The position numbers and the translations under genes were made by a program. A DNA stretch of 61,286 nucleotides from Ruminococcus flavefaciens. Its GTDB lineage: Bacteria > Bacillota > Clostridia > Oscillospirales > Ruminococcaceae. Numbering within the stretch: position 1 is the first letter of the stretch; each line of letters begins with the position of its first letter. The stretch covers positions 1-61,286 of the forward strand of contig CACYSQ010000012.1 in the NCBI GenBank assembly GCA_902777125.1, written 5' to 3'. A model generated the notes under the pieces. The model ran no database searches and had not been told where the DNA came from. It saw only the letters and a list, made by a program, of their open reading frames with translations. This document shows positions 4,942-34,175 of the stretch, piece by piece.

Positions 4942-5976
4942 ATGCCGTTTCATATAATCAGGAATGATATAACAAAGGTCGAAGCAGACGTTATAGTGAA
5001 CACTGCAAATCCTGAGCCGATTATCGGTGACGGAACTGACAGCGCTGTATATCAGGCGGCTGGCAAGGAGAAGCTGCTTGCAGAGCGCGTAAAGATAGGC
5101 AAAATGGAGCAGGGACAAGCTGCTATAACTCCTGCATTTGACCTCCATGCGAAATACATAATACATACCGTCGGACCTGCGTGGATTGACGGTAAGCATA
5201 ATGAACGCGATATACTGCGTTCCTGCTATTCAAATACTCTTGCACTCGCGGAGCAGGTCAAGGCTGAGAGTATTGCTTTTCCGCTTATTGCGACAGGTGT
5301 ATACGGTTTCCCGAAGAACGAAGCTCTTGATATAGCGCTTTCGGAGATAGGCAAGTATCTCCTTACACACGATATGGATATAATTCTTGTTGTATTTGAT
5401 AAGGAGTCTTTTCAACTGTCATCGGAACTGGTCGGTGCTATTGATGAATATATAGACGAATTCGGCATAAAGAAGATGTACAGCGATGAATACTCCATTA
5501 GCGGAGAAGAATATATCCACCGCAGAAGAGCGGCTGCTATGCTTGAAGATGCTGAAGATGAGGTGCTTTCCGCATCTTATACGCCTTTACCGGCGGATAC
5601 AAGCCTTGACCGGTTGCTTGACAATGGCGAAGAAACATTTCAGCAGTGCCTTTTCAGACTGATTAACGAGCGCGGCGCTGATGAAATCGAGCTTTACAAG
5701 AAAGCCAATATTGACAGGAAGCTGTTTTCCGCTATTCGCTGCAATGTCAACTATAAGCCGAAGAAGAAAACGGCTGTTGCGCTGGGCATAGCCCTTGAGC
5801 TTGATATGATGGAGATGATGGATCTGCTCCAAAGAGCAGGAATAGCTCTTCACTTCATTCTTGGCTTTGAAGGTGGGGAATCGATTAAGAAGCATCACCT
5901 TCGTCAATTTGATGCTCTGCCACTTGCAAAGAATGGTACGCTGAAAACAAAACTCGATTCTATATTTAACGACTGA
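4942..5976 (+). CDS. Macrodomain protein with C-terminal helical domain
   Basis: Residues 1-170 form a macro (Appr-1''-p processing) domain: ITKVEADVIVNTANPEPIIG, the GVYGFP loop and IIHTVGP. Such domains bind or hydrolyse ADP-ribose or O-acetyl-ADP-ribose. After a linker, residues about 235-310 form a compact helical region (LYKKANIDRKLFSAIR, KKKTAVALGIALELD, LLQRAGIAL) resembling an XRE-like helix-turn-helix. In relatives I know, this domain ends with a different tail; the last 45 residues here diverge and may reflect rearrangement. Start at 4942 follows GGAGG; upstream in-frame codons overlap the promoter. The next gene, a small HhH protein, begins 13 bases downstream. Confidence 0.8.
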   Translation: MPFHIIRNDITKVEADVIVNTANPEPIIGDGTDSAVYQAAGKEKLLAERVKIGKMEQGQAAITPAFDLHAKYIIHTVGPAWIDGKHNERDILRSCYSNTLALAEQVKAESIAFPLIATGVYGFPKNEALDIALSEIGKYLLTHDMDIILVVFDKESFQLSSELVGAIDEYIDEFGIKKMYSDEYSISGEEYIHRRRAAAMLEDAEDEVLSASYTPLPADTSLDRLLDNGEETFQQCLFRLINERGADEIELYKKANIDRKLFSAIRCNVNYKPKKKTAVALGIALELDMMEMMDLLQRAGIALHFILGFEGGESIKKHHLRQFDALPLAKNGTLKTKLDSIFND

Positions 5977-5989
5977 AAGAAGTGAATCT

Positions 5990-6217
5990 ATGCCAGAACA
6001 GAAGATTATCGACCGAGATACCTACTGTGCAATAAAGAAAATGAGCCGTGAGGAGTTGCAAGCCTTTCTGATGCGCTACGCTGACGGACTACTGGAGAAA
6101 GACGGCAAGTCCATCGATCTGCGTGAGGTAGAGAAAGACCTACGTCAGATCAAGGGCATCGGCGATAAACGTGTCGAAGAAATCATGGCAGTATTTGAAA
6201 AGCATCTGGGCGTATGA
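5990..6217 (+). CDS. Small helix-hairpin-helix protein, copy 1
   Basis: A 75-residue protein ending with IKGIGDKRVEEIMAVFEKHL, a typical HhH (GIGxKR) DNA-backbone-binding motif, after an N-terminal IIDRDTYCAIKKMSREEL region. Its paralogue at 14715-14945 shares the same layout. It is the second gene after the macrodomain gene and ends just before a strong terminator. Function is unknown; a DNA-binding accessory role is an inference from the motif alone. Confidence 0.75.
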   Translation: MPEQKIIDRDTYCAIKKMSREELQAFLMRYADGLLEKDGKSIDLREVEKDLRQIKGIGDKRVEEIMAVFEKHLGV

Positions 6218-6221
6218 AAAA

Positions 6222-6260
6222 AGCCGCTGAGTGGTACATTCCACTCGGCGGCTTTCTATA

Positions 6261-6262
<2 letters not shown>
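6222..6262 (+). terminator. Strong terminator
   Basis: AGCCGCTGAGTGG pairs with CCACTCGGCGGCT (13 bp, one wobble) and is followed by TTCTATATTTT. Confidence 0.85.
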
Positions 6263-6964
<702 letters not shown>

Positions 6965-9718
6965 TTAAGCCGCCTTTAGTAATATTCTTGATAATGCTGT
7001 AATTTCCACGCCGAACAGCTGAGGCTTTCCAAATACACGGATGCCCTGCCTCCAGAGGTCGGCGTCTATGTCGTTGAGTTCTGCCGCAGTGATAGCGCCG
7101 TCATTAACGATGAATTCAGCTATCTGCCGCATAACATCTGTTTGATCCTCGGAGAGGTCACGCTGAGTCTGACCGCAGTACAGGTTGAAACGCTGAACAA
7201 ATCCGTTCATAAGGCTGGTCAGCTTGGGATTCTTCTTGTATGCGTACCTGACAAGCTGTATCAGGTTAGTGAGAGCCTTTACATTAGCTCTTGTATCAAG
7301 GTCGTCAACACTGCCCGGATCGAGTGTCTTATAGTACTTCCACAGCTGAGGAGCACTGAAGTGGCTGCTCTCAGACAGAAGCCTGTCTCTCAGGTCTACA
7401 AGCATAGAGTGAGTTATCAGCGTATCTTCCGAGTTGTATATGATACGCAGAGCCTCAATACTGTCCTTGTTGTCGTTGATGTATTTCGCGAAGTTCTCGG
7501 TATATGTCTTGGCAGTCTCCTTTGAGAAGCCAGCACTTATAAGCGTATCGGGATCTTCGTCAGTTGTGAGGATGTAGCCCTGTCTCAGTTCAAGGAGCTT
7601 CTTCCTTGCAGGGATATTGCTGATAAGCCTGTCGATAAGAGCCATACGGATATGGTTGTCATCCGAAGGACTTATATAAGGAGGAAGCTTTCCGTCGTCA
7701 AAAGCTTCCTGTATCGCTGCTGCAAGCTCTTTCGGAGAGTAGCCGTAGTTGTCAATGAAGTATTGCAGATGATGTCCGAAGAAACGGTTATCCTCATAAC
7801 GCCTGTTTATCATAGCACAATAGTCACGGAGCAGGAACAGGTTATCGTCGCTCAGCTCATTATGCGACAGACGCTCCAACAGCTGTTCGAGTGTCAGCCT
7901 TTGTTTAACAGGACTTGGACCGGGGCCAGGCCCCGGTATATCCTTTTCATGTTCTGTTACGCCGATAGCATCGACAATGTAGTAGCATTCTTTGACATCG
8001 GCATTGGGCGTTACTTCACGGAGCTTATCTTCGTTGATAACACGACAGCCTCTGCCTTTCATCTGTGTATACAGTACCTCAGAGAATACGTCCTTCATGA
8101 AGAGTACAATTTCCAGAGGCTTAACATCCGTACCTGTAGCAACGAGAGTTACTGTTACTGCAATACGGAAGTCCTTCTCATTACGCAGGTCGCGGATAAG
8201 TCCGTTTGAATCATCGGATGAATAAGTGATTTTCTGAACAAAATGCTCGGGAACTTCTTCGTTCGGGAACTCGCGCTTGAATACGTCCTTTACAGCCTCT
8301 ACAATCTCAGTAGCATGATTATCGTTCTTAGCGAAGATAAGCGTTTTAGGTATGTATTCCCACGACTTTTCACGTTCCGGATAAAGGTCGTCATATATGG
8401 CCTTTTTGAATTCTCTAAGCACTTCACGTATCTGCTCACGATTGGTGATTGATCTGTCCAGCAGTTTAGCATCGTAATCCTTGTCCTGATCAACGGTATA
8501 GGTTGTATCGTTACCTGTCCTTCTTGCTGTTTCTGTAACAGATGTACCCTTATCAAGCGAACCGCCGTATTCGGTAACCTCCGTCATGATACGGTATACA
8601 CGGGCTGGAACGTTAACGCCGTCAACTACTGAACGCTCATAGGTGTAGTTTTCGACAATGTTATTATTGAAATAGGCGTATGCCTCTGGAGTAGGAGTAG
8701 CTGTAAGGCCGAGTATGTTAGCGCCTTTGAAGTAATCAAGTACAGCCTTCCACTTGCCGTATATCGAACGATGGCACTCATCAACGATGATAAGCTGTAA
8801 ATAATCCGGCGGTATCTTCAGATCATCGCCGAGCTGAATAACGGTATCGTCCTTCTTTTCAGATGCTTCAGCGATACGCTCATCCTCAGCATCTTCATCA
8901 TCGTCGCTTACAGCCTGTCCTGTCATTATAGCAAACAGTTTCTGAATAGTGGAAATGACGATATCTCCCTTTATATCACCTTCGTGTCTAAGCCTTCTTA
9001 TATCATAAAGGGCGTTCATTTCCTTTTTATTCTCAGTCATATTGAACTGGCTGAACTCGCTTTCAGTCTGTCTTGCAAGGTTATTTCTGTCTACAAGGAA
9101 CAGTATCCGCTTTGTGGAGGTATAGTTGAGCAGACGGTAGCTTGCAAGGCAAGCCAGATAGGTCTTTCCACTGCCGGTTGCAAGAACTGCCAGATTCTTC
9201 TTCTTTCCGTTCTTTATGGACTTCTCAAAGTTGAGTTCTGCGTTGTATTGGCAGTCTCTGAGAGACAGTTGCTCAAGCTTAGGCAGAGCGCCGTATTCAG
9301 AGGAACGCTTAATCATACGAAGCATCTGCTTAGGGGTATGTATAGAATCGATCTCTGCGTACTCCTCGTCTCCGGAAAGAAGATTCTTGAATAGTATCTT
9401 CTCGCCGTTTGACATATATACAAGTGGAATGAAGCCGTCTTCCCATAATCCGTACCATGAAAGCGGAGTACGGGCATAGTTCTCTGCCTGTGATTCAACA
9501 TCTTCTCCCAGCGGATTATCAGCTCTCTTTGCTTCAAGAACGGCGATAACCTTGTTGTCTATGAAAAGCAGATAGTCGCTCTCTTTATTGCCCTGAGTTA
9601 GAGCTTCTCTAATGGCAGAAGTAGTCTGTGGGACATACTCGTCCCTGTCAACTATATACCAGCCGGCTTTATTGAGTTTATCATCAATTTTTACGCGAGC
9701 TTTTTCTTCTGGGAGCAT
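6965..9718 (-). CDS. hsdR: Type I restriction enzyme R subunit
   Basis: A 917-residue protein of normal length for HsdR. The N-terminal PD-(D/E)xK nuclease core is visible (ESDYLLF, then VLEAKRAD), followed by a superfamily 2 helicase with Walker A ATGSGKTYLA, the DECH box and LTATPTPEAYAYF, then motif VI TQMKGRGCR. In the complex it translocates and cuts DNA, but only when bound to HsdM and HsdS. Those partners are broken or absent here, so it is an orphan unless supplied from elsewhere in the genome. The start at 9718 has GGTGG upstream and a consensus-like promoter at 9756-9784. Confidence 0.95.
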   Translation of the reverse strand: MLPEEKARVKIDDKLNKAGWYIVDRDEYVPQTTSAIREALTQGNKESDYLLFIDNKVIAVLEAKRADNPLGEDVESQAENYARTPLSWYGLWEDGFIPLVYMSNGEKILFKNLLSGDEEYAEIDSIHTPKQMLRMIKRSSEYGALPKLEQLSLRDCQYNAELNFEKSIKNGKKKNLAVLATGSGKTYLACLASYRLLNYTSTKRILFLVDRNNLARQTESEFSQFNMTENKKEMNALYDIRRLRHEGDIKGDIVISTIQKLFAIMTGQAVSDDDEDAEDERIAEASEKKDDTVIQLGDDLKIPPDYLQLIIVDECHRSIYGKWKAVLDYFKGANILGLTATPTPEAYAYFNNNIVENYTYERSVVDGVNVPARVYRIMTEVTEYGGSLDKGTSVTETARRTGNDTTYTVDQDKDYDAKLLDRSITNREQIREVLREFKKAIYDDLYPEREKSWEYIPKTLIFAKNDNHATEIVEAVKDVFKREFPNEEVPEHFVQKITYSSDDSNGLIRDLRNEKDFRIAVTVTLVATGTDVKPLEIVLFMKDVFSEVLYTQMKGRGCRVINEDKLREVTPNADVKECYYIVDAIGVTEHEKDIPGPGPGPSPVKQRLTLEQLLERLSHNELSDDNLFLLRDYCAMINRRYEDNRFFGHHLQYFIDNYGYSPKELAAAIQEAFDDGKLPPYISPSDDNHIRMALIDRLISNIPARKKLLELRQGYILTTDEDPDTLISAGFSKETAKTYTENFAKYINDNKDSIEALRIIYNSEDTLITHSMLVDLRDRLLSESSHFSAPQLWKYYKTLDPGSVDDLDTRANVKALTNLIQLVRYAYKKNPKLTSLMNGFVQRFNLYCGQTQRDLSEDQTDVMRQIAEFIVNDGAITAAELNDIDADLWRQGIRVFGKPQLFGVEITALSRILLKAA

Positions 9719-24420: not shown

Positions 24421-24442
24421 AGCCCGGACAACTGTCCGGGCT
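24421..24442. terminator. Shared terminator
   Basis: AGCCCGGAC/GTCCGGGCT with AACT loop between the convergent GH16 and nucleotidyltransferase genes, with A-run on the left and CTGCTTTT on the right. Confidence 0.85.
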
Positions 24443-24448
24443 CTGCTT

Positions 24449-25564
24449 TTATCTGCTTTTTTCAAGCTGTCTGAACTCATTTTCAAGCTCTTTTCTTTTG
24501 ACGGTCGCACCGCGCAGGAAACGGTAGCCGTATGCCGCCGGTATGAGCAGTCTGCTCTTTTTCACCCACGGTACGGCAGTTTCAAGGACTCTCAGCGGCG
24601 GGAAGAAACGGTATCTCAGATATCCGAGCTTAGAGCCGTTTCCGCGGTTCATGATGCCGTTCTTCACGGAATTCTCCGTATTTCCGTATATTCCGGACAT
24701 AACGTAATATTCGAGCTGTCTCTTTTCATCAACAGTGAGCTTCTTCATCGAGAATACCTTCATTGCAAGCTCACGGTTGCTGCGCTCAAAATCTGCGATG
24801 CCGAGCTTTCCGAATTCTTCATCAAGGTACCCCCAGTCGAGGAGGTCGCCGTAAATATTCATGAACACATATGTGTCCGCAAGTGAACGCACGCCGGTAC
24901 CGCCGTATGTGAAGTGCTTGTACTCATGCGCCACCATAAATAGGTAGAAGTCCTCATCGCTGAAATGGAAGCCGTATTTGCTGCCCTCATCAGGAATGAG
25001 CCGTTCCTTTATGTCCTTGAAGTGATCATAGAGACCTCCGATGTGTCTGCTGTCGAAAAGGCTGCTGTGCATCTCGAAATTCAGCACAGGCGCCTTGAAA
25101 TACGCATCATCGTTGCCCTGACCGAAGTGCTCGCAGGTGTATCCGTTTCCGAGGAAAATATCGCGCACATCAGCCATTCGGCTGCCGTCGCAGAGTATAT
25201 CGTTGTCCGACATCTGACGCATACCGAGCCTCGGGTACCAATACTGGAGCAATGCGCCTTTCAGCGGCATATACCATATCCCTTCGGATTCAAGCTCACG
25301 CAGTATGGTCCTGCGTTCGGCATCAAGGAGGATATTCTTGCGGATAGCCTTTTCCTTAGCCTGAGTAAATTCGCTGTCCCTGAAACCGGCTGATTCAAGA
25401 GCATAGGCAGCGCAGGCTGTGAGGATATGCTGCTGGCAGACCTCAAAAAGCTTCGGGAGGTCCATTTTCTCTATGCGTTCCGGACTGGGCTTCCTGCCGT
25501 TTATCGCACAGGCGGTAAGGTAGATCATATCCGTGGCGTTCCTGCGGAATTCAGGCTTTTCCAT
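24449..25564 (-). CDS. Nucleotidyltransferase-family protein (NTP_transf_5)
   Basis: A 371-residue protein. MPLKGALLQYWYP followed by MSDNDILCD gives the G-x-A and D-x-D elements of the NTP_transf_5 family; AHEYKHFTYGGTG is also typical. Members occur in lasso-peptide loci and near polysaccharide genes and may add a nucleotide to a peptide or protein; the reaction is not established. Its ATG lies 14 bases inside the end of the ABC transporter gene, making it the last gene of a tightly coupled five-gene operon. Confidence 0.85.
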   Translation of the reverse strand: MEKPEFRRNATDMIYLTACAINGRKPSPERIEKMDLPKLFEVCQQHILTACAAYALESAGFRDSEFTQAKEKAIRKNILLDAERRTILRELESEGIWYMPLKGALLQYWYPRLGMRQMSDNDILCDGSRMADVRDIFLGNGYTCEHFGQGNDDAYFKAPVLNFEMHSSLFDSRHIGGLYDHFKDIKERLIPDEGSKYGFHFSDEDFYLFMVAHEYKHFTYGGTGVRSLADTYVFMNIYGDLLDWGYLDEEFGKLGIADFERSNRELAMKVFSMKKLTVDEKRQLEYYVMSGIYGNTENSVKNGIMNRGNGSKLGYLRYRFFPPLRVLETAVPWVKKSRLLIPAAYGYRFLRGATVKRKELENEFRQLEKSR

Positions 25565-27272
25565 TCTCTATCACTCCGTTTTCAGTAAATTGCAGTATCC
25601 TGTCGCATATATCGAGTGCAGCAGGACGGTGGGTAACAATAACAACGGTCTTGTCCGTCATATCCCTGAGATTTTCGAGGACCTTCCGCTCTGTAGCCTC
25701 ATCGAGGGCACTTGTTGCCTCATCAAGGAGGAGTATCGGGCACCTTGAATACACAGCCCTCGCGATCGCGATACGCTGCATCTGTCCCTCCGAGAGACCC
25801 GTTCCGCGCTCTCCGAGGAGGGTATCGGCTCCGTCGTCAAGCTCGCTGACGAACTCGTCCGCGCAGGCTATTTTCAGGGCTTTGCTGATACGCTCGTCAT
25901 CGCCGAGACCTCCCTTGTCCGCAAAGCACACGACCTCGCGTATCGTTCCGGACATGAGCTGATTGCCCTGCGGAACATACGCAAAAAGGCGGTGGTATTT
26001 CGCGGAAAGCTCCTCGGTATTGCCGCTGTTATCGGTCACATAGCGTCTGCCGCCGTCGAGCTTGTAAATGCACATCAGCAGCTTGAGGACGGTGCTTTTG
26101 CCGCAGCCGCTGTGTCCCGTGAACGCAACGTACTGTCCCTTTCCTATCTCAACGCTGATGTTTTTCAGCACCACAGGCATAGCGTCCTTGCTGAGCTGAC
26201 GCACTGTATCAGAGGAGGGATAGTACGCAAAATCGGCGTTTTCAAGCCCCATAGCCGCAAAGCTCTCCCTGTAATAATCGAGCGTTTCGTCTATGTCCAT
26301 AGGCGTAACATCGGAATCGTTCTCGAATTCCTCTATCTCCATAAGTCTCTCAGCGCTCGCGGTCATCGCGTAATATTTCGGCAGATAGCCCGTAATATTG
26401 GCAAAAGGCGACTGTATCTGCGAAATGAGCTGAGTTATCGCAGTCAGCGTACCGTAGCTGATAGCTCCCGTGAGTATGCCGTAGCCGCAGTAGATAACGC
26501 CGACGACGTACATTCCCTGCATACCTGTCTGGAAGCCGATATTGCAGAAATTGGCGAAGCGTGTGCGTTTCATTCTTGTTGACTTGTGGTCGAACATTTT
26601 TTCAAGGGCTTCGTCCTCGGTCTGCTGTTCAGCCGCAAAGGAGCGAATCATCATCATGCTGCTGAGGCGTTCCTGAAGGTAGACCCGGAGCTTGCCGTCA
26701 CGTTCCTGAATGTTCTTGTGGAGCTTTTTCAGCACCTTCCGGAAGCCGTATGTGGCGAAAAACAGGACTATCCCGACCGGCAGAAGGACGAGCGCAAAGC
26801 GGTAGTCGAGGACTATCATCATCGCCATTGCGCTGACCATTTTCACTACCATTCCGGCGAGTCCGGGAAGTATCTCCACGCTGTTATTTGCCACGACGAC
26901 CGTGTCATTGGTCAGGCGGTTGAGCCACTCTCCGGAGTGGACCGCGCTGACGGTCCCGAAATCCTTGCTGAGGATATTGTTGAGCAGCCGCTGCTTGAAA
27001 AGGTTCTCGAGCGAGGCACGGGAAAGCTCCTCCAGCCAGCGTATTATCGCCCTCATCAATACCTGTGCGAGGACGAGGAGGACTATCAGCAGAACATAGA
27101 GCTTGAAGCCGTCCCTGTCGCCGTCAACGGCATTGTCCACGATATTCCGGAGCAGCAGCGCGTAAAGTACGCCGCTCGCACCGTGAAGTGCCTGGATTAT
27201 CATAAGCCAAAGGATATTCCATTTTTTCTTTCCGGTGACGGCACAGAGCCATTTTACTGCGGTGTTCCTCAT
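25551..27272 (-). CDS. ABC transporter, fused membrane and ATPase domains
   Basis: A 573-residue half-transporter. Residues 1-310 hold about six membrane segments; the ATPase domain has Walker A TGHSGCGKSTVL, signature LSEGQMQRIAIARA, Walker B PILLLDEATSALDE and H-loop THRP. It lacks an N-terminal C39 peptidase domain, so any leader removal would be done by another protein. A homodimer exporting a peptide or small product is the usual arrangement. It overlaps the peptidase gene by four bases. Confidence 0.92.
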   Translation of the reverse strand: MRNTAVKWLCAVTGKKKWNILWLMIIQALHGASGVLYALLLRNIVDNAVDGDRDGFKLYVLLIVLLVLAQVLMRAIIRWLEELSRASLENLFKQRLLNNILSKDFGTVSAVHSGEWLNRLTNDTVVVANNSVEILPGLAGMVVKMVSAMAMMIVLDYRFALVLLPVGIVLFFATYGFRKVLKKLHKNIQERDGKLRVYLQERLSSMMMIRSFAAEQQTEDEALEKMFDHKSTRMKRTRFANFCNIGFQTGMQGMYVVGVIYCGYGILTGAISYGTLTAITQLISQIQSPFANITGYLPKYYAMTASAERLMEIEEFENDSDVTPMDIDETLDYYRESFAAMGLENADFAYYPSSDTVRQLSKDAMPVVLKNISVEIGKGQYVAFTGHSGCGKSTVLKLLMCIYKLDGGRRYVTDNSGNTEELSAKYHRLFAYVPQGNQLMSGTIREVVCFADKGGLGDDERISKALKIACADEFVSELDDGADTLLGERGTGLSEGQMQRIAIARAVYSRCPILLLDEATSALDEATERKVLENLRDMTDKTVVIVTHRPAALDICDRILQFTENGVIENGKA

Positions 27273-27700
27273 CGCTTTATCAGCCTTTTCAGCTTATTTG
27301 CAGCGTGGAGGACAAACGCCCGCACAGGGAAAAGGTCGCACCACAAATGCACATACAGCCTGTATTTCCGGCTGTTCACGGAGACCTCCCTGCCATTGCG
27401 GATGACCGCCGTCAGAACGCCGATGATGTGGCGGTCGGTAACGCCGTACTCCTTCGACCAGCGGTTGTCTCCGCAGATAACATAATCACTGTCACGGACT
27501 TTGAGTATGCGGTGCAGCACATACTGTCCGCTGTCGCGCTTATACAGCGGAACATCGTACTTTTTCAGCCTGCCGTGAACGGGCTCGATGACGAGCAGGT
27601 CCCTGTCCTGCTTGATTAGCGGCATCATGCTGTCGCCCTTATTGGTGTAGATGAGCTTGCCGCTTTTTGCAAGCTGTTCCTCGAAAGTTGACTTAGCCAT
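27269..27700 (-). CDS. S24/S26-family peptidase-like protein
   Basis: A 143-residue protein with TNKGDSMMPLI, the serine-nucleophile box of S24/S26 (signal peptidase/LexA) enzymes, followed by LLVIEP and KYDVPLYKRDSGQYVLHRIL, where the catalytic lysine box and HRI strand are expected. GDNRWSKEYGV matches the last conserved box. No hydrophobic N-terminal anchor is seen, unlike ordinary signal peptidases, so it may be cytoplasmic; a hydrophobic stretch near the end (LFPVRAFVLHAAN) could associate with membrane. Small members of this type sit in peptide-modification operons. It overlaps pqqD-like gene by 8 bases. Confidence 0.8.
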   Translation of the reverse strand: MAKSTFEEQLAKSGKLIYTNKGDSMMPLIKQDRDLLVIEPVHGRLKKYDVPLYKRDSGQYVLHRILKVRDSDYVICGDNRWSKEYGVTDRHIIGVLTAVIRNGREVSVNSRKYRLYVHLWCDLFPVRAFVLHAANKLKRLIKR

Positions 27701-27959
27701 CTATCGCCCCGATTTGTCTGAGCTGGTCGATTATCTTCTTCACATCGCGCTCCATAGCCTCTTTCGGACCGTCGAACTTCTGCTGCATCTTGGAAACTAT
27801 CTCAGCCTCGGTAGTCTCATTCTCAAGGCAGCCTATGATGAAGCCTGCCGTTTTATTGCTGCGGACAAGTCCCGAAAAATTGCTTTCTCCCGTGGAAACG
27901 AGAATCTTCTGATCGCCGTCGTCATGTGTTAAAAATGCCTTGTTGAGTATCATAACCAT
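27693..27959 (-). CDS. PqqD-like RiPP recognition protein
   Basis: An 88-residue protein fitting the PqqD/RRE fold: N-terminal beta strands, then SNKTAGFIIGCLENETTEAE and VSKMQQKF, then a helix DVKKIIDQLRQIGAI. Such domains bind leader peptides of ribosomally made, modified peptides and hand them to tailoring enzymes. Its start overlaps the stop of the kinase gene (TAATG). No precursor peptide gene was found next to it. Confidence 0.85.
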   Translation of the reverse strand: MVMILNKAFLTHDDGDQKILVSTGESNFSGLVRSNKTAGFIIGCLENETTEAEIVSKMQQKFDGPKEAMERDVKKIIDQLRQIGAIDG

Positions 27960-28696
27960 TATCCTTTCATTCCGTTGTAAGCGACTTCCGCCGCTTCGAT
28001 ATCCATATTGCAGGCAAGCCTGTAGAGCTCGGTCTTTTCCGCCAGCTTGTCGATAAGCTCCAGCGTTTCAGCCATTTTCAGAGGCGACTGCGGACGGTAG
28101 ACCTGCTGTACGAGCATTGTATACGCCTCGGATTTTTCAATGCGGACGATGTTGTTTTTTTCGCCGCGGGTGAGTATACATATCGCTTTCAGCGGGACTG
28201 CAATGTCATTACCTAGCCTGTGCTTGCCGTTGTAGGGCGTACCGTAGGCGGTAACTCCGCTGTCAGTCACCTTCAGCATGGGCTTATCGTCGTTGACCAT
28301 GACTGCTCTGTCCCCGAGATACTCCCGCCAGAGCCGCGTATGCGTGGACTTGCCCGTGCCGCTTTTGGCTGTGAACAGGTACCCCTGACCGTCCACAGCT
28401 ATCACCGAGCCGTGGAACACGAATATACCGTGATCCGGCATTATCTCGGCTATCTTTCGGTAAACTGCCGTTTCCTCAAGAATATCGTCCGTGAAGTCCG
28501 GCAGAGGGAGCCCCTCATAGGCGTACTCCGAATCGGATTTCTTCTTCTCAAAGACAATGTCCTCCGGCGTAACAGTAACCGAAAAATCGGCAGTTTCATC
28601 GGAAGCATAGTCCTTGCAGTAATTCTGGACTCTCTCATAGATCGAGTTGATCTCAACGACCTTTTCTGCAAATCTGTATTTTCCGGTATACATCAT
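27959..28696 (-). CDS. HPr-kinase-like P-loop protein
   Basis: A 245-residue protein. GIFVFHGSVIAVDGQGYLF followed by P-loop SGTGKSTHTRLWREYLG and VNDDKPML are those of the HPr kinase/PEP-carboxykinase-like fold seen in lasso-peptide tailoring kinases, which phosphorylate a serine of the precursor. The C-terminal part carries the AICIL strand and a helical end. It is much shorter than true HPrK and lacks its N-terminal domain. Start at 28696 or 28693, both after AGGGAG. First gene of the operon from the promoter at 28734-28762. Confidence 0.8.
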   Translation of the reverse strand: MMYTGKYRFAEKVVEINSIYERVQNYCKDYASDETADFSVTVTPEDIVFEKKKSDSEYAYEGLPLPDFTDDILEETAVYRKIAEIMPDHGIFVFHGSVIAVDGQGYLFTAKSGTGKSTHTRLWREYLGDRAVMVNDDKPMLKVTDSGVTAYGTPYNGKHRLGNDIAVPLKAICILTRGEKNNIVRIEKSEAYTMLVQQVYRPQSPLKMAETLELIDKLAEKTELYRLACNMDIEAAEVAYNGMKG

Positions 28697-28733
28697 TCTC
28701 TCCCTGATAATAATGTTGTAAATGTCTGCATTC

Positions 28734-28762
28734 ATTATAGCATAAAATCTTATCCAATGCAA
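28734..28762 (-). promoter_or_regulatory. Promoter of kinase-PqqD operon
   Basis: Minus strand: TTGCAT, 17 bp, TATAAT. Confidence 0.75.
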
Positions 28763-28793: not shown

Positions 28794-28835
28794 CAAAAAA
28801 GTTAAGGCTGTACAGCGTTTGTAAACTGCACAGCC
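28794..28835 (-). terminator. Terminator of DUF2828 gene
   Basis: GGCTGTACAG/CTGCACAGCC stem (one wobble); the minus strand continues with TTAACTTTTTT. Confidence 0.8.
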
Positions 28836-28905: not shown

Positions 28906-30375
28906 TCAGGCGGTTACAGCGGCGTATCTCTCCGATGAGAGTATCCTGTTCATTACGGTCTCAGGCGAACACTCGCCGCCCATTACCATATCGAATATTG
29001 CCGGTGAATAGCCGGATACAAGTGCCGCACCGGTCTGTGAGCGCTGGACCGGTATCGCATCGCAGCGGGCATTGACGTTCCAGAAAATGATCTCGGGAAG
29101 CATATAGCCGTAGTTATGGTAGAGCCTCTGCATCGTCTTGAAAAGAGTGTCGTTGTTTCCGCCGATTATGCAGCTGTCGAACTGCATATCGGAGATTATG
29201 TAGAGCTTTGACGGCATATCGCTCGCGGCAACGTTGTTTTTCAGTGCCGTGCGGAGTATCAGCATGAAGACCGCTTCAAGGTCGGTATTCGCTACCTCGT
29301 TGAATGTACGGCAGTAATTGACCTTTTCGACGATATCTGCGCCCTTTATCTCGACAAGACGGGGCTTCTGCGAGAATGTGATGAAGTGGTTCGCAAAGTC
29401 TCCCCTGTTGTGTTCGGCGAAGTATATTCCCAGCGAAAGCGCTGCGTCTATCGGACGTATACCGCCGCAGCCGCAGGTCATCGAGCCTGAGCCGTCGATA
29501 ACGGCAAGTGCGTTCTCCTGCTTTGAAGCAGTGAGGTCGGGCAGGGACTTCCATGCCGTATCAAGCGAAAGGGTCTCCTCGCGGGAGATATTCCCAGCCA
29601 TAGCGGCACGGACTATATCATAGGGGAACAGTCTGTCGGCGTGGAGCTTAGCCTCTCCCCTGTTCACACGTTCAAGATATTCCGTGTAGCGCTCGTTATC
29701 GTTGCGGATAAACGCATTGCGGTACTTGAACATGGCGCAGGAGGGCTGCACCTCGTATTTGAAGGTGTAGTCACGCTCACGGAGACGGTTCTCCAGAATG
29801 TCGGTATATCTGCGGAGACCGGAAAGCATTTTTCTGTAATTGCGCTCGGTCATGCCGAGAAGTGCGGCAATGCGTCTTCCAAGACTGCGCGTTGCCGTTG
29901 AGGAGGTATTCACGGAGGGAAGCCACTTTGCAAGCAGAGAGGCAGGCTTTCCTGCACTCATTGCGGCAGTGTCAATATCAAGCCGGTTCCTTATAACGCT
30001 TATGGCGTCGCTCTCAAGGGGAGTTCCGATGAGAACGAGGAGGTCATCGTATCTGCCGTATTCCGCAAAAAGAGGGATATTCTTCTTTACAGCCGCCGGT
30101 GCAGTTTTTACAAGCGAAGCAACTGCGATACGGAAGAAACGTCTCTCGCCGAGACCGCCTCTTGCGTCACGGGCAAAGAAAATTATCTTCATGGTCTTGT
30201 CTGGATCCTCCGCATAGGCACGGACAACTGCGTCCGCAATATCCTCCGCCTTTGAATTACGCATAGCGCCTGCCTTGAAGAAAAGGTCAAGGCAGAACGA
30301 CTCAGAGGAAAGGTAGGCTGTTCCGCCGTTCTCGGTCGTTGTCATATTGGATTCTTCTTTAAGATAGTTGAGCAT
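28906..30375 (-). CDS. DUF2828 / Ro60-like vWA protein
   Basis: A 489-residue protein. The N-terminal helical-repeat part (FFKAGAMRNSKAEDIADAVV, FFARDARGGLGERRFFRIAV, SLLAKWLPSVNTSS) and the C-terminal von Willebrand A domain with MIDAS site DGSGSM fit DUF2828, a relative of the TROVE ring of Ro60/Rsr RNA-binding proteins. Ro60 homologues bind structured non-coding RNAs and act in RNA quality control. Start 30375 is favoured because AGAGG is 8 bases upstream; 30381 is possible. A tandem repeat and a strongly folded RNA candidate lie directly upstream on the same strand. Confidence 0.85.
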   Translation of the reverse strand: MLNYLKEESNMTTTENGGTAYLSSESFCLDLFFKAGAMRNSKAEDIADAVVRAYAEDPDKTMKIIFFARDARGGLGERRFFRIAVASLVKTAPAAVKKNIPLFAEYGRYDDLLVLIGTPLESDAISVIRNRLDIDTAAMSAGKPASLLAKWLPSVNTSSTATRSLGRRIAALLGMTERNYRKMLSGLRRYTDILENRLRERDYTFKYEVQPSCAMFKYRNAFIRNDNERYTEYLERVNRGEAKLHADRLFPYDIVRAAMAGNISREETLSLDTAWKSLPDLTASKQENALAVIDGSGSMTCGCGGIRPIDAALSLGIYFAEHNRGDFANHFITFSQKPRLVEIKGADIVEKVNYCRTFNEVANTDLEAVFMLILRTALKNNVAASDMPSKLYIISDMQFDSCIIGGNNDTLFKTMQRLYHNYGYMLPEIIFWNVNARCDAIPVQRSQTGAALVSGYSPAIFDMVMGGECSPETVMNRILSSERYAAVTA

Positions 30376-30427
30376 GGTCATTACCTCTTTTCTGAGCCTT
30401 TTTCAGCGGTATATTCCGCATAAACTG

Positions 30428-30838
30428 CCGTGTGCGAAAGCAGACTAAACCGTCCGCACAAACGGAGCGAGCCTGCGAGCGGCATCGTGGAAAACAGCGG
30501 TATCGCCCGAGCCTTAAACTGCAATTTTTCGTTATCTTCCGTGTGCGAAAGCAGACGCTGCCGTCTAAAAAAACGGAGCGAGCCTGCGGGCGGCAGCGTG
30601 GAAAACAGCGGTATTGCCCGAGCCTTAAACTGCAATTTTTCGTTATCTTCCGTGTGCGAAAGCAGACTAAACCGTCCACACAAACGGAGCGAGCCTGCGG
30701 GCGGCAGCGTGGAAAACAGCGGTATCGCCCGAGCCTTAAACCGCAATTTTGAGTTAACTGCCGTGTGCGAAAGCAGACTAAACCGTCCGCACAAACGGAG
30801 CGAGCTTGCGAGCGGCAGCGTGGAAAACAGCGGTATCG
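30428..30838. repeat. 111-bp tandem repeat, nearly four copies
   Basis: The start CCGTGTGCGAAAGCAGAC recurs at 30428, 30539, 30650 and 30761, exactly 111 bp apart. Copies differ by a few substitutions, copy 2 most, within the first 40 bases. Because 111 is a multiple of three, several frames stay open through the array and create false reading frames on both strands. Related single copies lie at about 34190-34220 and 37050-37150. Confidence 0.95.
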
Positions 30839-30842
30839 CTGC

Positions 30843-31347: not shown

Positions 31348-31406
31348 TAAAATGACATAGTGTGTTCAGACACTATATTATCAATTCTAAAAGGAGGATG
31401 ATTAAA

Positions 31407-34175
31407 ATGAAGTCATTCATCAGAAGGACAGTCAGCGTTTTCTCTGCTGCTGCCTGTATGCTGACAAGCTTCCACTTCGCTAAGATAGCTGATGTTACGG
31501 AAGCTAACTCGGCAAGCGGTATGAGCGCATTCGACATCACCCGCGAAATGAAAATAGGCTGGAATATAGGCAACAGCCTCGATGCGACCGGCGGAAACGG
31601 GTACTATGGCGTGAATACCGAGGAAAGCTGGGGCAACCCCAAGACAACTCAGGCGATGATCGACACTGTCAAAGCTAAGGGCTTCAACACCATAAGGATA
31701 CCTACTACATGGTACCCTCACCTCGACGGCAGCAACCGCATCGACAGTGCGTGGATGAGCCGCGTCAAGGAGGTCGTTGACTACTGCATCAAGGACGATA
31801 TGTACGTTATCCTCAACGTTCACCATGAGGACTGGGTAAACGTCAATCAGTTCAACGACCAGACCTATCAGAACGCTGAGACCAAGCTCACCGCTATATG
31901 GCAGCAGGTCGCCGATACCTTCAAGGACTACGACCAGCACCTCGTCTTCGAGGGCATGAACGAGCCGCGTCAGACCGGCAACCCTAATGTCAGCCAGTGG
32001 GGCAACGGCAGCGGCGACGGCGGCTACACATGGAACTACATCAACAAGCTCAATGCCAAGTTCGTTTCGACCGTCCGCGGACAGGGCTCGGCTGCAAACA
32101 AGGAGCGTCTGCTCATGCTGCCCGGCTACTGTGCATCGTCCGATATGCAGGCTATCAAGGCTGTAACATTCCCTGCAAACTGCGGAAACGTCGCCTACTC
32201 GGTACACGCTTACCTCCCCTACTATTTCACTATGGCAGAGGATCAGTACGCCAACCACAACTATCCCGGTCAGAGCGGCTGGGGCGAGGACTATACAAGC
32301 AGCATCAACTCTTTCTTCAGCAATCTCAAGCAGCTCGAGGATCAGACGAATATCCCGGTCGTTATCGGTGAATTCAGTGCCTCGAACTTCAACAATCTCA
32401 GCGCTCGTCAGGCTTGGGCAAAGGACTACATCACCGCTGCAAAGAAAGCCGGCATTCCCTGCATACTATGGGACAACAATGTTGAGGGCGGCAACGGCGG
32501 AGAGTCCCACGGCTACCTCAACAGAAGCGCTAATTCGTGGTATTCAGCCTCCGAGCCCGTTCTCGACACTATGATGTCCGTCATCAACGACAAGTCGATA
32601 CTCTGGGGCGGCAAGGAGACTCCCGTTATCACAACTACTACCACTACTACTACCCGCGAGCCCTACCAGTACGACGACTACTTCAAGAACGACTTCGAGA
32701 GCAGTACCGAGGACTGGACCGCAAGAGGCAGCGCTTCCCTGAGCCGCGACAGCAAGAATTACTACACAGGCTCGAATTCTCTCTACGTCACCGGCAGAGA
32801 AAAGGACTGGCACGGCTGTGCGATAACCCTCGACAGCAGCCTTTTCGTTCCCGGCGAGACCTACAGCTTCAGTGCGGCAGTCCTCCAGAAGGGCGGCTCG
32901 ACAGCTTCGATACAGATGTCCCTCCAGCAGTCGGACGGCACCAATACCTCCTACAACGAGATAGCTACCGTTCAGGCAAAGAGCGGCGAATGGACAAAGA
33001 TCGAGAATACACGCTACACTATCCCTGCGGGCGGCAGTGACCTCGTCCTCTACATTGAAACAACAGACGGATCGAACAACCTCTGCGACCTCTACATTGA
33101 CACGGTTCAGGTCTCCAAGGCAGGTATCGCCTCCACTGTTGTTACAGGTCAGGGAACAGTCGATTCCTCCGCGGTAGTTACGGGACCCGTCGGTGATCTC
33201 ACCAAGGACAGCACCATAAAGGTCATGCCTATCGGCGACTCTATCACCTTCGGCTACGGTCATACCGGCGGCTACAGAAAGTTCCTCGACTATTACCTCA
33301 AGCAGAAGGGCTTCACAAAGGTCGATATGGTCGGTCCCGAGGGCAGCAGTTCGGCTCAGTTCAGCTACAACGGTCAGAACGTCACCTACGACGACAACCA
33401 CGCCGGCTACAGCGGTTACACTATCGTTCAGAAGTACCCGATCCCGAGCTGGGGCGAGAACGGTCTCCTTGAAAAGCTGAAGTCAAAGAACGCTATCGCA
33501 AGCGCTAAGCCCGATATCGTCCTCCTCATGATAGGAACCAACGATATGACCGCAAACCGCAGCATGAGCGAGTGCGAGGAGGACCTCCACTCACTGCTCG
33601 ACTATATCCTCGCAGACCTCCCCTCCGGCGGCATCGTATACCTCGCATCTATCCCCGAATTCACCGCTTACGGCGGAAATGCTCAGCGTGTTGCGAATTA
33701 CAACGCTACAGTTAAGAAGGTCGCTGAGTCCTACGGTTCAAACGTGGTGTTCGCAGACGTTCACGGCTGTCTCGACGGCATGAACGATATGGACAGCGAT
33801 CAGCTCCACCCCACCGAGAAGGGCTATGAGAAAATCGGCAAGTTCTGGGCTGGTATCATCGACAATTACGTTTCCGCTTCGACAGTTTCCACCACAACTA
33901 CTACCACGACCACTACGACTACCACCACAACGACAACTACTACGACTACAACTCCTCCCAGCGATACCGAAAAGACTCCCGGTGATGCAAACTGTGACAA
34001 TGCGGTCAATATGGCGGACGCCGTATTTATCATGCAGTGCATAACCAACCCCGACAAGTACAGGCTCACCGAAAAGGGCGAGCGTAACGCTGATACCGAC
34101 AACAGCGGCGATATCACCAACCTCGACGCTATGATAATCCAGCAGTACAAGCTCGGACTTCGTCAAGCTATCTGA
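31407..34175 (+). CDS. Secreted GH5-CBM-SGNH esterase-dockerin enzyme
   Basis: A 922-residue bifunctional enzyme. After a signal peptide (1-33) comes a GH5 domain (about 35-400) with acid/base E186 in FEGMNEP and nucleophile E322 in VVIGEFS. A Thr linker (408-416) leads to a CBM22/CBM4_9-like module (about 425-575). Residues 605-810 are an SGNH esterase of CE3 type with S612 in GDSITFGYG and D798/H801 in DQLHP. A run of about 20 Thr (829-848) precedes a C-terminal type I dockerin (859-922). It probably cuts beta-glucan or xylan and deacetylates it. AAGGAGG precedes ATG 31407. Confidence 0.95.
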   Translation: MKSFIRRTVSVFSAAACMLTSFHFAKIADVTEANSASGMSAFDITREMKIGWNIGNSLDATGGNGYYGVNTEESWGNPKTTQAMIDTVKAKGFNTIRIPTTWYPHLDGSNRIDSAWMSRVKEVVDYCIKDDMYVILNVHHEDWVNVNQFNDQTYQNAETKLTAIWQQVADTFKDYDQHLVFEGMNEPRQTGNPNVSQWGNGSGDGGYTWNYINKLNAKFVSTVRGQGSAANKERLLMLPGYCASSDMQAIKAVTFPANCGNVAYSVHAYLPYYFTMAEDQYANHNYPGQSGWGEDYTSSINSFFSNLKQLEDQTNIPVVIGEFSASNFNNLSARQAWAKDYITAAKKAGIPCILWDNNVEGGNGGESHGYLNRSANSWYSASEPVLDTMMSVINDKSILWGGKETPVITTTTTTTTREPYQYDDYFKNDFESSTEDWTARGSASLSRDSKNYYTGSNSLYVTGREKDWHGCAITLDSSLFVPGETYSFSAAVLQKGGSTASIQMSLQQSDGTNTSYNEIATVQAKSGEWTKIENTRYTIPAGGSDLVLYIETTDGSNNLCDLYIDTVQVSKAGIASTVVTGQGTVDSSAVVTGPVGDLTKDSTIKVMPIGDSITFGYGHTGGYRKFLDYYLKQKGFTKVDMVGPEGSSSAQFSYNGQNVTYDDNHAGYSGYTIVQKYPIPSWGENGLLEKLKSKNAIASAKPDIVLLMIGTNDMTANRSMSECEEDLHSLLDYILADLPSGGIVYLASIPEFTAYGGNAQRVANYNATVKKVAESYGSNVVFADVHGCLDGMNDMDSDQLHPTEKGYEKIGKFWAGIIDNYVSASTVSTTTTTTTTTTTTTTTTTTTTTPPSDTEKTPGDANCDNAVNMADAVFIMQCITNPDKYRLTEKGERNADTDNSGDITNLDAMIIQQYKLGLRQAI

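Follow-up and report, generated by a model that had tools for sequence, protein, structure and literature searches.

A five-gene operon of the LPP kind in Ruminococcus flavefaciens and its candidate short peptide precursors elsewhere in the genome

Which peptide is served by a set of genes that resembles the tailoring part of a lasso-peptide cluster, yet lacks a cyclase and a precursor, is the question raised by a five-gene operon of Ruminococcus flavefaciens. The operon lies on the minus strand of a 61,286-nucleotide stretch of DNA (the window, i.e., the whole stretch that was analyzed, which is contig C12 of a genome of 97.5% completeness), and encodes an HPr-kinase-like protein, a PqqD-like protein, an S24/S26-like peptidase, an ABC exporter and an NTP_transf_5 nucleotidyltransferase. 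An earlier note, made from the sequence, had placed these genes within positions 24449–28762, had described them as coupled by overlaps of 1–14 bases and had proposed a distinct modified-peptide system. All five genes are indeed located there, neighbouring genes overlap by 14, 4, 8 and 1 nt (from the nucleotidyltransferase end to the kinase end), and the proposal stands in the form of a non-lasso set of the type known from the Linear Polyphosphorylated Peptides (LPP). The operon belongs to the LPP kind, whose gene set was published in May 2026 (PMC13381572), and the kind is therefore not new. With high confidence, it is regarded as a complete LPP-type (lppKBSDN-like) maturation and export set for ribosomally synthesized and post-translationally modified peptides (RiPPs), which would act in trans on six short precursors encoded elsewhere in the genome. 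Apparently new are the scattered, multi-copy precursors, a different leader, a cysteine branch and, most notably, the pairing with a secreted-protein domain; the main text of the LPP article, supplements apart, does not contain the terms Ruminococc, Clostridi, radical SAM (S-adenosylmethionine), lipoprotein or surface protein.

As described in that main text, the lppA-K-B-S-D-N cluster of Paenibacillus alginolyticus is matched by the window operon in its five enzyme types and in the K-B-S-D-N gene order, and the LPP core set, i.e., a SpI-like peptidase, a discrete RiPP recognition element (RRE), an HprK-like kinase, a nucleoside triphosphate (NTP) transferase and an MsbA-like exporter, is present here in full. 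Further likenesses are the absence of a cyclase, the YxxP leader, short precursors with variable tails and a conserved Ser past the leader. The two systems differ in their substrates and surroundings: the LPP precursor carries the motif YxxPxVLxHQxIxFETxxS and lies in or near its cluster, whereas the motif found here is YxxPExEVIxFxxEDVITTS and no copy lies in the window; the stretch past the motif is often 5–10 residues long, compared to 45 in the one LPP core studied; radical SAM and methyltransferase branches occur here, unlike in LPP; and the present system is linked to large secreted proteins, while LPP is linked to capsule loci.

The kinase (27959–28762 as first called) probably starts at 28696 or 28693 rather than at the TTG at 28762, as 29 of the 37 other kinases in the alignment (A3) start no more than two columns from the Met at 28696/28693, with seven starting further upstream and one downstream. 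Its profile matches, to Hpr_kinase_C (E 0.025) and, as best NCBIfam match, to ScmC of the SynChlorMet cassette (TIGR04249; E 7.8e-10), both fall under the curated cut-offs. In sequence searches, no solved structure was matched at E 0.01 by the profiles of the kinase, the NTP_transf_5 protein or the protease, and the kinase and protease structures were for this reason modelled. The AlphaFold model of the kinase (mean pLDDT, the predicted local distance difference test, 95.3; alignment of 49 rows) returned PEPCK and HprK as top Foldseek matches, with a best E of 4e-7. The His-Lys-Asp-Asp motif of HprK-like kinases (PMC9266682), also found in the LPP kinase, corresponds by our own reading to H94, K115, D135 and D136, which are kept in 38, 38, 34 and 38 of 38 rows, respectively.

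The protease likewise matches profiles under their curated cut-offs, namely Pfam S24 (E 0.029) and the NCBIfam archaeal signal peptidase I (E 4.7e-4). Its AlphaFold model (mean pLDDT 91.2; alignment of 55 rows) was placed by Foldseek among SpsB, UmuD', LexA and human SPC, with a best E of 3.1e-3 (no match reaching 0.001) and query template modelling (TM) scores of 0.36–0.54 across the first 25 rows. Residues S24, H63 and D78 are each present in 41/41 rows, and on this sequence evidence the protein is assigned to the Ser-His signal-peptidase type. The LPP leader peptidase is a SipW-like Ser-His-Asp enzyme, with catalytic residues S29, H68 and D93 in LppS (PMC13381572); the window protein has Ser24, His63 and Asp89, the last of which lies 26 positions after the His (25 in LppS) and is common but not invariant (28/41 and 42/55 rows). 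The earlier statement that an S24/S26 enzyme takes the place of the usual leader protease is upheld, a signal-peptidase-type enzyme being found instead of a B2 protease. The exporter combines PF00664 and PF00005 and has MsbA as its best NCBIfam match (E 2e-64, under the model cut-off), while the nucleotidyltransferase matches PF14907 (E 1.5e-38), with G103, D120 and D122 invariant among 20 rows and K102 and D126 present in at least 90%.

The PqqD fold of the putative leader binder is assigned from profile matches, i.e., to PF05402 (E 1.8e-12) and, with the RRE profile (A4), to the solved RREs TbiB1 (3.1e-8), TfuB1 (2.4e-7), PbaB1 (9x90; 2.1e-5) and LppB (9x8z; 2.2e-4); a search of the PDB with the single protein gave one weak unrelated match. 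N33 and D70 of LppB have been reported to fix the kink at the Pro and the Tyr of the YxxP leader (PMC13381572). These residues align with N35 (31/33) and D72 (32/33) of the PqqD-like proteins, the residue offset having been counted by us. The same Asp is reportedly used by an actinobacterial lasso RRE, and this residue therefore does not separate LPP from lasso systems.

The candidate substrates form a family of short peptides (30–47 aa in a 17-row alignment) with an MKxxYxxPExEVIxFxxEDVITTS leader followed by a variable, mostly acidic tail. In 20 of 45 operon loci from relatives a member lies beside the operon, the kinase or the protease gene being at most 1.9 kb away. No member was found in the window, and the genome to which the window belongs carries six good copies, two each on contigs C26 and C10 and one each on C18 and C4, together with one weak match on C1. 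The substrates thus likely lie elsewhere in the genome, as the sequence matches indicate and as the earlier note had suggested; its further suggestion that the substrate might not be a short precursor was not borne out. Five precursors compared with Pfam and NCBIfam gave no family over cut-off (a single Pfam match, E 0.04, fell under it), and a literature search for the string EDVITTS returned no match among the papers available. Unlike in LPP, the precursors are scattered, with up to 14 match rows per genome (G048 in the first of the two genome samples described below, G115 and G310 in the second).

To relate precursors to operons by genome, two samples were considered. In the first, comprising 99 genomes including that of the window, the protease was called at E 0.001 in 40 genomes (the window genome among them), and precursors were found in 43, i.e., in 39/40 protease-positive compared to 4/59 protease-negative genomes (Fisher p 8e-22); this association is partly circular, as all 17 profile rows came from the relatives' operon loci, none being from the window genome. 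In the second sample of 291 genomes of the class, five of which are shared with the first, 30/31 precursor-positive genomes have the protease, compared to 98/291 overall (p 5e-15), and with the five shared genomes removed and the protease required at E 1e-15 or better the figures are 27/29 and 75/286 (p 9e-16). These p-values treat genomes and loci as independent and do not model relatedness, and the genome lists behind the tests, like the coordinates behind the domain-precursor pairing described below, were compiled by hand.

By homology with characterized systems, a maturation path may be proposed in which the PqqD-like protein would hold the leader by its YxxP segment, the kinase would add one or more phosphates to the conserved Ser of EDVITTS, and the signal-peptidase-type enzyme would cut in or just before ITTS. 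A short peptide of mostly acidic character, with the Ser close to its N-terminus, would result. The NTP_transf_5 protein may then add a nucleotide or a sugar to the phosphate, hexose addition having been reported for PsmN (PMC9266682), and the ABC protein would export the product. In LPP the phosphosite is Ser3 and the cut falls after Thr-1 (PMC13381572). The gene set and its order, two folds, the conserved residues, the precursor family, its co-occurrence with the protease and its adjacency to the operon are drawn from sequences and models, while leader binding, phosphorylation, cleavage and export, as well as the sequence in which they occur, are transferred by homology.

A number of points weigh against this reading. 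The EDVITTS Ser is the best phosphosite candidate because the last motif position is Ser in 90/92 parsed peptides and 24/92 tails hold no Ser, Thr or Tyr, but the former count is biased, since parsing (which left 3/95 precursors, in L206, L237 and L238, without a tail) allowed only S, A, N, T and D and the profile favours Ser. YxxP and a downstream Ser are all that the leader has in common with that of LPP, and the Tyr-Ser spacing is 19 here compared to 18 in LPP; the cleavage position and the phosphosite are for this reason extrapolated, and with the spacing differing by one the cut may fall before ITTS or inside it. The RRE profile ranks lasso RREs over LppB, LppN showed no activity in the published LPP system (PMC13381572), and no product has been seen here or, in the sources available, from any strain of this group. 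Furthermore, 25/45 of the relatives' operon loci carry no precursor, ten of these being on less than 12 kb of DNA, and 68/98 protease-positive genomes of the 291-genome sample show none; in the latter the substrates may be out of reach of the profile or of another type, or some of the protease matches may be ordinary signal peptidases. In the first sample, G072 is protease-positive without a precursor, and G005, G023, G029 and G032 (completeness 90, 66, 73 and 99%) have precursors without the protease.

The genes lying upstream of the precursors point to a candidate partner for these peptides. Of 95 precursors, 75 were kept for analysis (at least 40 bits and a parsed tail; 7/75 had less than 700 nt of upstream DNA), and for 56/75 a same-strand frame of at least 240 aa ends at a point from 75 nt inside the precursor to 300 nt upstream of it, compared to 10.4% of random positions, the control having drawn any position and strand and distances having been counted from the open frame rather than the start codon. 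By a crude test, 32/39 complete upstream frames look secreted, compared to 115/282 other large frames of the same loci. A shared domain was detected in the last 170 residues of 34/51 upstream proteins compared to 2/282 other large frames, its C-terminal placement being biased by the restriction of the search to those residues. Seven upstream proteins were compared with Pfam: four contain leucine-rich repeats (BspA type, DUF285), a transglutaminase-like domain or prenyltransferase-like repeats, three gave nothing, and the shared domain itself has no Pfam match in these seven. None of the 51 upstream proteins showed an LPxTG motif in its final 60 residues.

Across the 99 genomes the domain profile (A8) gave 100 matches in 28 genomes, of which 28/28 are precursor-positive and 27/28 protease-positive; this result is partly circular, since the 12 profile rows were taken from proteins encoded ahead of precursors in eight of these genomes, window genome included, although the other 20 domain-positive genomes contributed no row. 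A precursor follows within 150 nt in 71/100 cases (67 of these at 19–49 nt) and within 1500 nt in 81/100; conversely, 71/144 precursor rows have a domain no more than 150 nt upstream and 73/144 do not. In the window genome, three domain frames end between 6 nt inside and 38 nt before a precursor frame, one of them with a non-terminal domain. In the second sample, compared by eye, nine genomes have the domain, of which eight have precursors (not G307) and nine the protease (weakly in G354).

This gene order suggests, as a hypothesis, that the peptides may serve domain-bearing surface proteins. It is possible, if doubtful, that in Ruminococcus and its relatives each domain protein is encoded with its own peptide 20–50 nt downstream, that the shared operon modifies and exports all of the peptides, and that each peptide binds the domain or joins a cell-surface sugar via its phosphate and so holds or displays the protein at the surface. 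If true, this would represent a protein-display system distinct from sortase, S-layer homology (SLH) and dockerin anchoring. It would also be the first role assigned to LPPs, whose biological role is unknown according to the article describing them (PMC13381572). The pairing of peptide and domain names a concrete candidate partner for LPP-type peptides. In addition, as many as 14 dispersed precursors may depend on a single modification operon, and searches confined to its vicinity would overlook them.

The radical SAM branch of the system goes with a cysteine in the precursor tail. In L038, L040, L041, L042, L133 and L147 the precursor and the kinase are separated by a radical SAM gene, and more distant relatives (29–31% identity to the query) lie near precursors in L177 and L203. 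A tail Cys is present in 9/9 precursors no more than 1500 nt from a same-strand radical SAM gene compared to 3/83 others, the nine cases representing about three enzyme lineages (six at 51–100% identity to the query); of the three Cys tails without such a gene nearby, two belong to precursors that appear doubtful by eye (L038:6800 and L194). L191 and L201 possess the enzyme without a recognized precursor. The window genome has no close radical SAM relative (one match, 28% identity over ~140 residues) and its six tails lack Cys, as the association would predict. One methyltransferase family was also found, in L038, L040, L043, L150 and L206.

Of note, some precursor tails share ELPFVP-like ends with small lipoprotein-like proteins, which were observed in L057, L058, L062, L065, L071, L081, L124, L127, L130, L170, L176, L178 and L189. 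In L124 the precursor and a lipoprotein-like protein both finish in IELPLVPLR, and in L127 a lipoprotein-like frame (8512–8925) holds the precursor leader motif YTTPEVEIVEFTTEDVITTS ahead of an LP-type tail, as if fused. Such tails occur in 13/80 lipoprotein-like frames compared to 24/3180 other frames, and no mechanism was found.

The resemblance to lasso-peptide tailoring that the earlier note had pointed out is genuine in that the operon is akin to the tailoring portion found in phosphorylated lasso loci: in the sources available, those for paeninodin, pseudomycoidin and Bsf share the HprK-like kinase and the PqqD-like B1, with a nucleotidyltransferase in psm and bsf, and their leaders carry YxxPxL or WxxP, YxxP being also found here. 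Lasso systems are defined by a macrolactam cyclase and a B2 leader protease. Neither this cyclase nor a B2 cysteine protease was found with the operon, unlike in those loci, and the expected product is linear and distinct from a lasso peptide. The window genome has one PqqD and no match to Transglut_core3 (the B2 protease); its six Asn_synthase match rows, not each of which is ruled out as a cyclase, all lie on contigs other than that of the operon, and one (C10) resembles a QueC-type protein by eye. Transglut_core3 matches occur in 10/99 genomes (six over cut-off) and at no operon. In G019 the domain belongs to a lasso-type set, being fused to an ABC transporter and accompanied by PqqD and an Asn_synthase protein (L212, contig C1, ~511 kb), on a different contig from the operon; R. 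albus 8 and R. flavefaciens ATCC 19208 reportedly carry a similar fusion (PMC7533575). The G019 cyclase (a 380-aa piece) and three window-genome Asn_synthase proteins were used as BLAST queries against 125 operon loci, i.e., the 45 from relatives and a second set of 80 kept out of at least 593 kinase-profile matches in named genomes. No lasso cyclase was recognized in these loci, and LPP likewise lacks one. The sole match, in L137, corresponds to the terminal portion of an asparagine synthetase (profile positions 229–354, the last third). It and an adjacent serine-recombinase-like gene (5372–7739 together) occupy the protease's expected place behind PqqD and probably represent an insertion in the operon, and the match was rejected as a cyclase. 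Two SGGxDS proteins were likewise rejected, that of L075 being a GMP synthase and that of L199 a weak QueC match under cut-off. The earlier note had held that a conserved cyclase and precursor beside the operons of close relatives would speak against its view; precursors are present there (20/45, within 2 kb), while no cyclase was recognized by BLAST in the 125 loci, and its statement that B2 and cyclase are missing is sustained.

On these grounds a lasso cluster with missing parts is disfavoured, and a lasso system with its cyclase and B2 protease encoded at other sites of the genome is the least probable of the alternatives: the kinase, RRE, exporter and nucleotidyltransferase types are those of the paeninodin and Bsf lasso loci, lasso B1 proteins are the best solved matches of the RRE profile and the Asn_synthase rows leave candidates, but the B2 and cyclase searches and the separate contig in G019 argue otherwise. 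Moreover, lasso peptides need a longer core than the many tails of 6–10 residues would offer. That the strain retains the operon as a relic, with no substrate for it, is also very improbable; while the window has no precursor, and neither has the vicinity of the operon in the closest named relative among the matches listed (R. flavefaciens Y1, L132), the five frames are all open with their catalytic residues kept, and three of the six precursor genes elsewhere in the genome stand directly behind frames holding the shared domain. The tight linkage of precursors to secreted-type proteins, together with the 25 operon loci without a nearby precursor, could also mean that the peptides are regulatory or structural companions of secreted-protein genes and that the operon acts on a surface protein, a polysaccharide or another target. 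This is improbable, though less so than the other two, because the leader bears YxxP, the motif that RREs of this class read, precursor and protease co-occur by genome in two samples, and the radical SAM gene and the tail Cys occur together. The LPP-type set acting in trans on short precursors is accordingly retained.

The kinase family alone is wider than this five-gene system and may serve other systems too. Among the matches listed, the closest to the window kinase is from R. flavefaciens Y1 (79%). The 80 kept loci only partly carry the other operon genes (PqqD 61, protease 57, ABC 40, NTP_transf_5 37 and precursor 32, the last at 22 bits), as counted in an interval that reaches 4.5 kb ahead of the kinase and 5.5 kb past it. 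In L145, L146, L148, L153, L157, L176, L181, L190, L198 and L205, some of which are at contig ends, none of the four other operon genes was recognized near the kinase-family gene. A rearranged order (PqqD, NTP_transf_5, kinase, protease, ABC) was seen in L051, L065 and L081, and in L081 the protease and the NTP_transf_5 protein are each broken into two frames.

Features of the operon and its borders (positions in the window)
Feature	Position	Strand	Evidence
lppK-like HprK/PEPCK-fold peptide kinase	27959..28693	-	profile matches, model, Foldseek, alignment
lppB-like PqqD-type RRE	27693..27959, probable start 27953	-	PF05402, RRE profile matches
lppS-like leader peptidase, Ser-His signal peptidase type	27269..27700	-	weak profiles, model, Foldseek, alignment
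lppD-like MsbA-type ABC exporter	25551..27272	-	PF00664, PF00005
lppN-like NTP_transf_5 nucleotidyltransferase	24449..25564	-	PF14907
terminator-like hairpin directly past last gene	24421..24442	-	T-run follows hairpin on both strands
terminator-like hairpin between upstream DUF7788 gene and operon	28806..28835	-	terminator scan
promoter-like TTGCAT-17 nt-TATAAT, TG ahead of second hexamer	28734..28762	-	by eye only

With respect to control signals, the claim that the genes stand behind one promoter is unproven, since the promoter-like site was noticed by eye and was not called by the promoter scan, which gave four promoter-like sites in the region compared to 3.7 expected. The terminator scan gave nine terminator-like sites compared to 4.4 expected, and lists the hairpin past the last gene on the plus strand only. 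Upstream of the operon, positions 28906–30381 encode a 491-aa protein with DUF7788 (E 2e-44), DUF2828 (E 4.7e-32) and a weak von Willebrand A match; as terminator-like hairpins flank the operon, this gene is probably not a member of it. Further upstream lie a tandem array (30428–30839; 3.7 copies of a 111-bp unit, 91% matches) and a large secreted-type frame (31362–34175), in which a 12-bp repeat, ACCACGACCACT, at 33891–33946 encodes a Thr-rich linker.

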